A stretch of DNA of 64,000 bases from Fidelibacterota bacterium (GTDB lineage: Bacteria > Fidelibacterota > Marinisomatia > SCGC-AAA003-L08 > GCA-2689995). The stretch is taken from the NCBI GenBank assembly GCA_002689995.1, contig NZIV01000063.1, positions 83,010 through 147,009 on the forward strand. Reading direction: 5' to 3'. Numbering within the stretch: the first letter of the stretch is position 1; each line of letters begins with the position of its first letter. The notes under the pieces are model-generated. The model was not told the origin of the DNA and searched no databases. It saw only the letters and a list, made by a program, of their open reading frames with translations. This document shows positions 1-3,620 of this stretch, piece by piece. The translations under genes were made by a program, and so were the position numbers.

Positions 1-201
1 AATAACATTTTTATCCCATTCGCATCAGGTCCTAGAAAGTGTATTGGGAATAGATTATCATATTTAGAATTAGAAACTATCATAACAAAAATATATTCAA
101 ATTTAAAATTTAAAAGAGAATCAGAAAATGAAATTAAGTATAATCCATTTATAACATTAAGACCAGATCAAAAAATTATAATGAATATTCAACCTATTTA
201 A
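1..201 (+). CDS. Cytochrome P450, C-terminal fragment (5' end outside window)
   Basis: Reading frame 1 is open from the first base to a TAA at 199-201 and gives 66 residues. They contain the heme-binding loop of P450s, seen as F-A-S-G-P-R-K-C-I-G-N-R, where the Cys is the axial heme thiolate ligand. The L helix (LSYLELETIITKI) and the usual short C-terminal beta region follow. P450s are heme monooxygenases that hydroxylate or otherwise oxidise lipophilic substrates. Substrate and redox partner cannot be read from this fragment. The stop lies 14 bases before the ketosynthase start, on the same strand, so the two are probably co-transcribed and may act in one pathway. Assignment to the superfamily is firm; the subfamily is unknown. 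Confidence 0.88.
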   Translation, partial: NNIFIPFASGPRKCIGNRLSYLELETIITKIYSNLKFKRESENEIKYNPFITLRPDQKIIMNIQPI

Positions 202-215
202 AAAAGTAAACAATA

Positions 216-2057
216 ATGAATAATGTATATATAACCTCCCATGGTATTTTTTTACCTGGTAATCCTATAAAAAATGAAAATATTGAAAAATATTTAGGAA
301 TGATTAATGGTAAACCATCCCGAACTAGAAAAAAAATATTAAAACAAAATCAAATTCAAACAAGATATTATGCTATTGATGAAAATCAAAATACGCTTTA
401 TTCAAATGCTGACTTAGCAATAAAAGCAATTAATAGATGTATAAATAATTCTAATATTTTGCAGAATGATATAAACTTTTTAGCAACTGCAACCTCCCAA
501 GGCGACTTACCAATTCCTGGATTTGCAAGTATGGTACATGGAAAATCTAAAATAGGAGAATGTGAAATAGCTTCCTATCAATCAGTGTGTGCCGCAAGTA
601 TGATGGCAATAAAAAATGCATATCATCAAGTCAAAATAAATGATAAAATAAATGCAATAGCCTGTGGTAGTGAAATCCCGAGTAGATTATTCAAAAGTTC
701 AAGGTATGAAAATCAAAAAAGAAAACTATCATTAGAAGAAGACTTTTTAAGATGGATGCTTTCAGATGGATCCGGATCAATTTTATTACAATCTAAACCT
801 AGTAAAACAAATATTTCATTTAAAATTGAATGGATTGATATAAAATCTTATGCACATAATTATGAAACGTGCATGTATGCTGGTACAAATAATCCAAATC
901 AATCTTATTCATGGTTAGACTATAAAAATTTTGAAGAGGCAGCAATAGATGGTGCAATTAATCTAAGACAAAATTTAAAACTTGTCAATAATATGGTTAA
1001 AGTTGGTGTCGACCACTTTTTTAAATTAATGGACCAAGGTTTATTAAATACAAATGAAATTGATCATTTGTTATGCCATTATTCTTCTCATTCTTTTAAA
1101 CAGCCTATTTTAGATTTACTAGATAAGGGAGGAGGATTAATTCCAGAAAATAAGTGGTTTACAAATTTATATTCAAAAGGTAATACTGGATCTGCATCAA
1201 TTTTTATTATGATGGAAGAATTTATTTCAAAAAAGATTCCAAAACATGGTGATAAAGTGTTGATGATGGTCCCTGAAAGTGGAAGATTTATTTCTTCTTT
1301 TATGTTATGTACAGTTCTTTATCCAAAAAAGATAACTCTTAGTAATATTTCAAAAGAAAAAATATCTGCACCAAAGCTTCAAATTGGAAATTCCAAAGTA
1401 CAAGAATGGCTGGTTAGACAATTAACACAAATTTGGATTGATTATGAATCGAAATTAAATAAAATACCAATTGTTAGAAAAATTAATGAATCTACAATTA
1501 CACTTAAAGAATACAGAAAATTATTACTTAACTTAAGGCAACAAGTGGTGGATGGGGCACAATGGATTGCAAGAGCTGCATCTAATGTAAGTGTTGATTT
1601 TTTTGAATCTAGATCAGCATTTATTTCTCATGCAAGAGAAGAGCATCGAGACTTTAGAATGTTAGAAAAAAACTATACTGCTTGTGGTGGAGATATAAAA
1701 AAGATTCAAAATACAGAAAAAAATATTGGTAGTGAAGCACTATCAGCCTGGATGTTCCATCGTGCAAGCCAACCCAATCCCTTCGATTTATTGGGTGCAA
1801 TGTTTATAATTGAAGGAATGGGTAATAATATAGCAGGTAATTGGGGTAAAAAAATTAAATCACATTTAAATCTTGAAAATGAACAAATTTCTTTTATGAC
1901 TTACCACAGTTCTGCAGATGAAAATCATTTTGAAAGATTAGAACTAGCATTATCATCAAACTTATTAACAGATGAAATTGCAAAATCAATTGCAAAAACT
2001 GCTAAAGTCACTGCAAGATTATATTGTCTCCAATTAGAAGAATTAGATAATATTTAA
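216..2057 (+). CDS. Beta-ketoacyl synthase III-like enzyme fused to a heme-oxygenase-like diiron domain
   Basis: This 613-residue protein has two halves. Residues 1 to about 370 have the thiolase fold of KAS III/OleA-type condensing enzymes, with a Cys-His-Asn triad visible as C125 (SVCAAS), H288 (LLCHYS) and N323 (KGNTGSAS). Residues about 430-605 look like a heme-oxygenase-like diiron oxidase (PqqC/TenA/UndA fold), with metal-ligand candidates E475/E476 and H477 (HAREEH), E533 (IIEGMG), and H564, D568 and H571. Canonical KAS III is about 330 residues, so the protein is nearly double length. The length and first half recall StlD/DarB-type ketosynthases of dialkylresorcinol and stilbene pathways, but that is memory, not a search. 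Context (P450 before, unknown genes after) suggests condensation of acyl units followed by oxidation. Product and substrate are unknown. Confidence 0.75.
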   Translation: MNNVYITSHGIFLPGNPIKNENIEKYLGMINGKPSRTRKKILKQNQIQTRYYAIDENQNTLYSNADLAIKAINRCINNSNILQNDINFLATATSQGDLPIPGFASMVHGKSKIGECEIASYQSVCAASMMAIKNAYHQVKINDKINAIACGSEIPSRLFKSSRYENQKRKLSLEEDFLRWMLSDGSGSILLQSKPSKTNISFKIEWIDIKSYAHNYETCMYAGTNNPNQSYSWLDYKNFEEAAIDGAINLRQNLKLVNNMVKVGVDHFFKLMDQGLLNTNEIDHLLCHYSSHSFKQPILDLLDKGGGLIPENKWFTNLYSKGNTGSASIFIMMEEFISKKIPKHGDKVLMMVPESGRFISSFMLCTVLYPKKITLSNISKEKISAPKLQIGNSKVQEWLVRQLTQIWIDYESKLNKIPIVRKINESTITLKEYRKLLLNLRQQVVDGAQWIARAASNVSVDFFESRSAFISHAREEHRDFRMLEKNYTACGGDIKKIQNTEKNIGSEALSAWMFHRASQPNPFDLLGAMFIIEGMGNNIAGNWGKKIKSHLNLENEQISFMTYHSSADENHFERLELALSSNLLTDEIAKSIAKTAKVTARLYCLQLEELDNI

Positions 2058-2061
2058 ATCT

Positions 2062-2940
2062 ATGGTTAATAAATATGAAAATTATAAGCATGATTATAAT
2101 AATCCTAATATCCAATTAGCAATCTATTTAGACAATAGTATTCCATTCAATAAAAAAGCAAAGAGTGCATTTTTATTTGATTCTTCAAGATTATCAAATA
2201 GAGTTTTATTACCTTTTGTCAAAGTAATTGCCAGAGCTTTTAGATTTTTAGTAATTGGTTTTAAAGCTATTTTCCCAAATTTATTAAATATGCCAAAATT
2301 TTTACATTGGCAGCTATATATAGGACAAAAATACTTTTTAACACCTGAAGCAAATTATTTAATAATGAGACATTTTAATATTGGATCAGAGATTTTACAA
2401 TTTATTTCGGATAATGTTAATGTAAAATTAAGTTCAGTAGAATCAATTAAACCTAAAAAACTGAACGAAATAAAAAATAATGTTTATCTTAATCATGATT
2501 TAAATTTATTTAACTTTATTATTGAATTAAATCAAAAATTAAAAAAAGAAAAACGTAAAATTGAAAAAATAGACTTATCAAAAATTAACTTTAGTTCAGT
2601 TTCTTTAGATGAATTTAAATTTGAAAAATTTCCTAACAAAATTACAAATAAAATAGATTTAGCAACTGCGATAGAAATTTTTAGTCCAATATTCCAACTT
2701 TATTTAAGAAATGATGATCATGACAGGGCTGTAAGCTCTCTTCAATTTGATGAAACAATAGGTATTTATGCAGCAACAATTCTAGGAGTTCCAGAAAAAT
2801 TAGTTTTAGTTAATAATCGACATCCGATGATATCTTTAAGTCCTATAAAATCTGGTTTTAGATTATTATTACATGGTTTATCTACAGAAGTACTTTTTGG
2901 CCTTCTCCAAGATTTAAAAAAATTACAAAAAGAAAGTTAA
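2062..2940 (+). CDS. Unrecognised 292-residue protein in the ketosynthase cluster
   Basis: I do not recognise this family. It begins 4 bases after the ketosynthase stop, so it is almost certainly translated with it. The protein has no signal peptide. An amphipathic or weakly hydrophobic stretch lies at about residues 48-75 (RVLLPFVKVIARAFRFLVIG). A Lys-rich middle at about 155-185 separates two better-structured parts. The C-terminal part holds a polar patch, NDDHDRAVSSLQFDETIG, and a segment VNNRHPMISLSP that look conserved-site-like. Paired Asp/His residues could bind metal, but no known motif is complete. Tight coupling to the fused ketosynthase suggests a partner or the next pathway enzyme. 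The start ATG at 2062 follows the previous stop closely and no better start is visible. Confidence 0.6.
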   Translation: MVNKYENYKHDYNNPNIQLAIYLDNSIPFNKKAKSAFLFDSSRLSNRVLLPFVKVIARAFRFLVIGFKAIFPNLLNMPKFLHWQLYIGQKYFLTPEANYLIMRHFNIGSEILQFISDNVNVKLSSVESIKPKKLNEIKNNVYLNHDLNLFNFIIELNQKLKKEKRKIEKIDLSKINFSSVSLDEFKFEKFPNKITNKIDLATAIEIFSPIFQLYLRNDDHDRAVSSLQFDETIGIYAATILGVPEKLVLVNNRHPMISLSPIKSGFRLLLHGLSTEVLFGLLQDLKKLQKES

Positions 2941-2942
2941 AA

Positions 2943-3620
2943 ATTCTGAGATTTATTAAATATACATTATTTTTTTATATTTTTAATATTGCTTTTTCAT
3001 TAGATAACAATTCAATAAATGCTCTTAGAGGAATATTGCAGACTCCTCAAATTATTAACTATTTTGAAAATGTTATTTCTAAAGTTGGCGTAATAATAAA
3101 TGAATCTAATGAAAAATTTACATTAGAACATAATGGGGTAGAAATTCTACTTTATCATGATATATGTGATGATGTTGCTTATATCATTAATTTAAATTTA
3201 AATAATATTGAAAATATAGTTTCACATGCCTATGATGGTAAAATTGATAATCAAGAGTCTTGGAAAATTATAAATGTTTTATTTACACCTATGTTTAAAT
3301 CAACATTTCAATTAACAATGAATAATAATTGGAGAAAAAAATTATCTAATCTTGAAGAAATTACCCATACATATTTATATTCATTCGATAAAAAAGAGTT
3401 AATAGGAAAACATACAATCATTAATAAAAGTCAATTAGTTGAAATAAAATTGGGGATACAAGGAGAAGCTAATAGAGTATATAAATTAGATTCAGATAAT
3501 GCCCTTATCTTTCAAAAAAAAATGCAAAAAGCTATCATAAATGATAATTGGTATGAGTGGCTTAAATTTGCTAAATGGTATCGAGATTGGCAGGAAGATG
3601 TATCTATTTTAATTAAATAA
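2943..3620 (+). CDS. Exported protein of unknown function, probable ATT or CTG start
   Basis: The first standard start is TTG 3036, but the frame is open upstream to the preceding gene and encodes a good signal peptide: a basic start (LRFIKY), a hydrophobic core (TLFFYIFNIAFS), and a likely cleavage before LDNN. The start is therefore probably ATT 2943 or CTG 2946, right after the 2940 stop, giving about 225 residues. The mature protein is mixed alpha/beta with an aromatic-rich tail (WYEWLKFAKWYRDW). No family is recognised. It closes the P450-ketosynthase cluster, which suggests a periplasmic or envelope role linked to the product. Its 3' end overlaps the convergent dapF by 12 bases. Coding is likely; the exact start is inferred. 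Confidence 0.6.
   Translation: MLRFIKYTLFFYIFNIAFSLDNNSINALRGILQTPQIINYFENVISKVGVIINESNEKFTLEHNGVEILLYHDICDDVAYIINLNLNNIENIVSHAYDGKIDNQESWKIINVLFTPMFKSTFQLTMNNNWRKKLSNLEEITHTYLYSFDKKELIGKHTIINKSQLVEIKLGIQGEANRVYKLDSDNALIFQKKMQKAIINDNWYEWLKFAKWYRDWQEDVSILIK

Follow-up and report, generated by a model that had tools for sequence, protein, structure and literature searches.

We report here a three-protein cassette at the start of a 64,000-nucleotide stretch of a Fidelibacterota genome (contig NZIV01000063.1). The cassette comprises a ketosynthase (KAS) related to StlD and DarB, a heme-oxygenase-like dimetal oxidase (HDO) and a protein of the DUF6999 family. In this genome, KAS and HDO are fused and a cytochrome P450 gene precedes them. 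The whole stretch is called the window below, and numbered positions refer to it. The link of DUF6999 to KAS-HDO is new here, and the module is unreported and strongly supported. Two of its three positions are filled by ordinary families and the third by an uncharacterised protein. As for its function, we see a roughly even chance that P450, KAS-HDO and DUF6999 form a lipid-derived biosynthetic insertion with a conserved three-protein core, in which a condensation and cyclisation of the DarB/StlD kind would be followed by oxidation by the HDO.

Conservation of the KAS-HDO-DUF6999 cassette

We scanned 84,980 bacterial and archaeal genomes for the HDO domain and kept 80 loci. First, KAS was fused to or adjacent to HDO in all 80. 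In addition, DUF6999 was the next gene downstream in 75 of them, in one case (L034) with a fatty-acid desaturase inserted in between. Of the five loci without DUF6999, four (L029, L031, L060 and L079) lie on contigs that stop less than 600 bases from HDO; in the fifth (L027), a thiolase takes the place of DUF6999 and the contig ends soon after. Finally, a reciprocal search from DUF6999 was made in three classes. The family was carried by 6 of 240 Alphaproteobacteria, 5 of 247 Actinomycetes and 6 of 295 Bacteroidia genomes (about 2% each), and HDO and KAS lay directly upstream in 17 of 17 loci. Thirteen of these 17 came from genomes not used as search centres, and some may share species with loci of the first scan. 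Given the KAS linkage in 80 of 80 loci, the 75 loci with DUF6999 and the 17 of 17 reciprocal loci, we conclude that, judged from gene order, KAS-HDO-DUF6999 is a conserved, patchy cassette whose linkage is obligate. Its hosts are scattered over seven phyla and include many Microbacterium, Agromyces and Sphingomonas species.

A first-pass annotation of the window had proposed a lipid-derived biosynthetic cluster of four neighbouring genes, including a P450 and a ketosynthase-oxidase fusion. The fusion does recur in unrelated genomes, and the inner two genes (KAS-HDO and DUF6999) recur as neighbours; the outer two (the P450 and an exported protein) do not, and the recurring unit is KAS-HDO-DUF6999 only. 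As for the two proteins that had been left without a family, DUF6999 stays with the cassette and the exported protein is found without it. We found no paper on KAS with HDO in such a system and none under DUF6999 or PF22523, in a search that left subscription journals and preprints mostly outside.

KAS and HDO are fused in Bacteroidota, Myxococcota, Cohnella, one Acidobacterium, Kiloniellales/Rhodospirillaceae, one Pseudomonadales genome and two actinobacteria, and are separate elsewhere. On the chromid of Pseudoalteromonas sp. THAF3, for example, KAS, HDO and DUF6999 are three separate adjacent genes. On a quick concatenated tree of 77 cassettes, the fusion state changes at least four times and the pair is still linked. 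Given this repeated fusion or fission with persistent linkage, we infer that KAS and HDO work consecutively on one substrate.

Genes in the window

Four plus-strand open reading frames (ORFs) lie at 1-201, 216-2057, 2062-2940 and from there to 3620, separated by 14, 4 and about 2 bases, as the first-pass annotation had described them. KAS and HDO are encoded by the single 613-residue ORF at 216-2057. The features are as follows.

1..201, + strand: cytochrome P450, C-terminal 66 residues (PF00067, E 7e-56 on the full gene); accessory oxygenase outside the conserved core.
216..1325, + strand: StlD/DarB-type ketosynthase (KAS) domain, fusion residues 1-370 (NF005293, E 1.5e-116; Cys125, His288, Asn323).
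1389..2057, + strand: heme-oxygenase-like dimetal oxidase (HDO) domain, same ORF as KAS (PF14518, E 1.6e-9).
2062..2940, + strand: DUF6999 protein, third cassette member, 292 residues (PF22523, E 3e-97).
2943..3620, + strand: exported protein without a family match, a neighbour judged to lie outside the cassette (related proteins in 15 further genomes of the phylum).

The family matches agree with the identities first given to the P450 and to the KAS III-like/diiron fusion, and the last gene still has no recognised family. The 292-residue protein, which had been called unrecognised, is a full-length member of Pfam DUF6999.

Ketosynthase domain

The StlD/DarB model NF005293 aligns with KAS residues 4-367, and the catalytic triad Cys125/His288/Asn323 is present in 82 of 82 sequences. 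StlD is the nearest solved relative (E 5e-74), the next family reaching only 1e-7. The KAS model superposes on StlD (5gk2) with a target-normalised template modelling (TM) score of 0.91 and a root-mean-square deviation of 2.1 Å. The domain has both the full-length family match and the fold of StlD/DarB.

DarB and StlD use a beta-ketoacyl and an enoyl thioester to form 2,5-dialkyl-cyclohexane-1,3-diones (PMC5515871), which DarA then converts into dialkylresorcinols (DAR) by aromatisation. DarA is annotated as a DAR aromatase (PMC3949708), and darA and darB together yield DAR (PMC3992019). With the StlD/DarB pathways (DarABC dialkylresorcinols, isopropylstilbene and the DAR moiety of flexirubin), the cassette shares the ketosynthase family, the fold, the Cys-His-Asn triad and the expected acyl substrates. 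The partners differ, however. Here they are an HDO, often fused, and DUF6999, with no conserved neighbour that corresponds to the DarA aromatase or to DarC, an acyl carrier protein (ACP). The cyanobacterial bartoloside clusters, in which DarA/DarB occur with CylC-type dimetal-carboxylate halogenases, provide a precedent for DarB chemistry alongside a dimetal-carboxylate enzyme (PMC8406957). Those clusters keep DarA, their genes are unfused and the oxidase family differs (CylC was not recognised here).

Ketosynthases of this family were also seen in other settings. A mobilizable Streptomyces plasmid carries a different small cluster (L018:5706-13030) with a DarB-like ketosynthase, ACPs, an FAD monooxygenase, an SCP2-domain protein, FabF and a P450. 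On plasmids of Bacteroides (L134:4409-6134) and Prevotella (L133:5355-7125), a lone StlD/DarB-type ketosynthase directly follows a TetR/helix-turn-helix regulator, with no adjacent DarA.

HDO domain

The linker between KAS and HDO is poorly ordered in the model (predicted local distance difference test, pLDDT, below 50 at residues 373-379). The HDO domain scored above the Pfam cut-off for Haem_oxygenas_2 (PF14518; 38.3 vs 28.9 bits). In a profile search of the PDB, it matched 3dde, a heme-oxygenase (HO)-fold protein (E 2e-10); this was the sole match, and UndA was not retrieved by sequence. Candidate metal ligands in the fusion are among His472, Glu476, His477, Asp479, Glu533, His564, Asp568 and His571, which are invariant or nearly so across 26 fused homologues. 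In the numbering of the HDO domain, H80, E84, E141, H172 and H179 are present in 82 of 82 sequences, H85 and D87 in 81, and D176 in 73. These conserved residues would suffice for a three-His/three-carboxylate site, and metal binding is likely. In one Bacteroidetes metagenome-assembled genome (L027:3170-6433), the HDO has Asn for the near-invariant His477 and Asp479; this copy is possibly decayed or repurposed.

The domain shares the HO fold and conserved His/Glu/Asp positions with the characterised HDOs (UndA, SznF, CADD, AetD and BesC). It differs from them in being fused or adjacent to a ketosynthase, in lacking a sequence match to them and in its atypical first helix. The words ketosynthase and fusion are absent from a 2026 review of HDOs (PMC13108848). 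A link to DtpC, an HDO of desiccation tolerance (PMC13232832), was considered and dropped, as no conserved gene context is held in common. Another HDO operon, on a Vibrio plasmid (L019:3822-7425), encodes a 'thermostable hemolysin', an AMP-binding enzyme, an HDO and a short-chain dehydrogenase/reductase.

DUF6999 protein

The third protein matches DUF6999 over model positions 1-275 of 275 with 325 bits, the curated cut-off being 27. Its AlphaFold model, built with 50 homologues, is all helical (pLDDT 94.9; predicted TM score 0.92). A Foldseek search of this model against 350,542 PDB chains gave no match (best E 1.2, probability below 0.1, TM about 0.2), and a fold search against viral models gave no significant match. 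Profile searches in the PDB and Pfam returned DUF6999 alone. In the same kind of fold search, the KAS-HDO model, used as a positive control, retrieved StlD immediately. Going by these comparisons with the PDB and viral models, DUF6999 is without a solved structural relative; a new fold is not claimed.

His104, Asn118, Asp146, Asp199, Asp230, His271 and Glu276 are invariant, with His145 nearly so. The invariant His, Asp and Glu residues fit a catalytic or metal-binding role. H104, H145-D146 and D199/D230 recall an H...HD...D pattern. The idea of an HD-domain phosphohydrolase or oxygenase was rejected, since no HD match was found in Pfam, in the PDB profile search or in the fold search.

The P450 and other accessory genes

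The full P450 gene is complete in the contig (C34:81954-83210; 418 residues) and starts 1,056 bases left of the window. The match to PF00067 improved from E 6e-9 on the window fragment to 7e-56 on the full protein. Among solved structures, it is closest to the plant carotenoid hydroxylases LUT5 (E 8e-37), and P450s are rare in the host phylum, where the best other match has 33% identity. None of the 80 loci has a P450 beside the cassette; L040 carries a P450 on the opposite strand, at a distance of 3.3 kb. The position of the P450 next to the cassette is, from these gene neighbourhoods, particular to this genome.

Elsewhere, this position is taken by other genes or by none. In nine Bacteroidota loci, the slot upstream of KAS-HDO is held by a fatty-acid hydroxylase (PF04116); three of these were scanned for domains and the others were assigned by clustering. 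A fatty-acid desaturase (FA_desaturase) lies beside the cassette in three Myxococcota loci and one Bacteroidota locus, the latter (L027) having it in the upstream slot. The Myxococcota have a cupin-like protein upstream of KAS-HDO and the desaturase between HDO and DUF6999, as in Corallococcus (L034:4802-9443), where the cupin-like protein is of the JmjC type. Finally, a 1,130-residue protein with major facilitator superfamily (MFS), acyltransferase and acyl-AMP-ligase parts adjoins the cassette in seven alphaproteobacterial loci. A constant core with a variable, swapped oxygenase is consistent with a lipid-derived product. Accessory links beyond the hydroxylase and acyltransferase groups come from few loci.

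Borders and origin of the probable insertion

Left of the P450 lie a 370-residue Exo_endo_phos lipoprotein and a 256-residue exported protein without a family match. The two are present in about half of 60 related genomes, side by side in most of them, and DUF6999 is absent from all of these genomes. In this pair (L004:8057-9940), which is conserved across the phylum, the lipoprotein with its endonuclease/exonuclease/phosphatase domain comes first and the 256-residue exported protein follows. Given that this pair is native to the phylum, the cluster begins with the P450. The first-pass annotation had read the start of the window as the right end of a possible cluster. In view of the native pair, we rejected any extension of the cluster further left.

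On the other side, the exported protein at 2943-3620 is related to proteins in 15 further genomes of the phylum, all of which lack DUF6999. In eight of these loci that we inspected, no cassette gene was nearby and the neighbours were not conserved. After this search, we rejected the exported protein as a part of the cassette, and the earlier suggestion that a product is handed to an envelope protein is unsupported. The ORF has no ATG, GTG or TTG before 3036, and the gap of about 2 bases requires an ATT (2943) or CTG start. Since homologues begin about there, the start is probably an ATT or CTG codon, close to position 2943.

DUF6999 was found in 1 of 245 genomes of the phylum, namely this one. 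On a quick tree, the window cassette groups with eight Bacteroidota sequences (Shimodaira-Hasegawa-like approximate likelihood ratio test 99; nearest identity 58%) on a long branch. Because this is the sole DUF6999 carrier in the phylum, the cassette groups with Bacteroidota and both flanks are native, P450-KAS/HDO-DUF6999 is probably a compact insertion between native genes, transferred from or shared with Bacteroidota. The G+C contents of KAS-HDO (28.8%) and DUF6999 (23.3%) against a window mean of 31% are not informative on transfer.

Proposed pathway and alternatives

In the pathway that we propose, KAS would, like DarB and StlD, use a beta-ketoacyl and a 2-enoyl thioester. Fatty acid synthesis would supply these two activated acyl units, and KAS would condense and cyclise them into a product of the dialkyl-cyclohexanedione type. 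The HDO, physically coupled to KAS, would then oxidise the ring product with its dimetal centre and O2. This step might be an aromatisation, hydroxylation or decarboxylation, for example, and would replace the aromatase DarA. DUF6999 may act as a third enzyme or as a partner on the same intermediate. Tailoring would be lineage-specific, by the P450 here, a fatty-acid hydroxylase in Bacteroidota and a desaturase in Myxococcota, and in the present genome the P450 and DUF6999 would complete the product. Our best guess for this product is an oxidised lipid of the cyclohexanedione or resorcinol type. More tentatively, we suggest an undescribed cross-phylum system, in which a DarB-like KAS passes its product directly to the fused HDO, DUF6999 is an enzyme with a fold unseen in solved structures, and the outcome is a new class of oxidised lipid-derived metabolites.

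Several observations weigh against the proposed insertion and its ring-forming pathway. KAS falls below the curated NCBIfam cut-offs for both StlD/DarB (390 vs 450 bits) and DarB (356 vs 550 bits), and we therefore place it beside DarB and not in DarB; such an enzyme may accept different substrates and does not have to form a ring. Across the 80 loci, neither DarA nor an ACP was found as a conserved neighbour, and no genome-wide search for them was made. The first-helix ligands of the HDO depart from the usual Glu-x9-His spacing, the motif being H-x3-E-H-x-D, and are also spaced differently from those described for DtpC and SznF (PMC13232832). In most actinobacterial loci, the core lacks an adjacent lipid oxygenase, and many show transporters, regulators or unrelated genes. 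Finally, contamination of the assembly was estimated at 7.3%; the flanks, which are typical of the phylum and lie on the same contig, speak against a stray contig.

The low KAS scores would also suit a pathway without a ring, which we consider rather unlikely. KAS would then condense its acyl units head to tail or head to head into a linear beta-keto acyl product, which the HDO would cleave or decarboxylate to a ketone, alkene or hydrocarbon, along OleA- or UndA-like lines. UndA, a fatty acid decarboxylase, is one of the HDOs (PMC13108848), and the KAS model resembles OleA too, though far less well than StlD. However, StlD is the nearest solved relative by a wide margin in both sequence and structure, and the HDO profile found 3dde alone in the PDB, without UndA. 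The first-pass annotation had envisaged an oxidised alkyl or alkenyl product formed by condensation and then oxidation or decarboxylation; the lipid-derived unit is supported, and we keep the linear decarboxylated product as this alternative.

It is improbable, in our estimation, that the cassette acts in situ, modifying a cell lipid or polar lipid carrier, and serves membrane or stress adaptation instead of making a secreted metabolite. Each of the 13 genomes checked has one copy of DUF6999, the cassette occurs in many species of the three genera named above, and the 1,130-residue protein of the seven loci resembles phospholipid acylation enzymes, all of which would suit such a role. However, its patchy presence in about 2% of the sampled genomes in each of three classes is more like that of an accessory trait, and the core has no lipid-head-group gene. 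A single coherent pathway of all four window genes, with an envelope-located protein at its end, is suggested by their tight same-strand spacing, but it is highly improbable and largely refuted by linkage, as the exported protein is present in 15 further genomes of the phylum that lack DUF6999 and the P450 adjoins none of the 80 related cassettes.

Significance

The cassette offers a ketosynthase with a built-in oxidase and a candidate new protein fold. Culturable hosts are available in Microbacterium, Sphingomonas, Flagellimonas and Corallococcus, and DUF6999 is also found in Caulobacter vibrioides. A domain of unknown function becomes one third of a defined and testable module, which has been kept across seven phyla despite recurrent changes of fusion.

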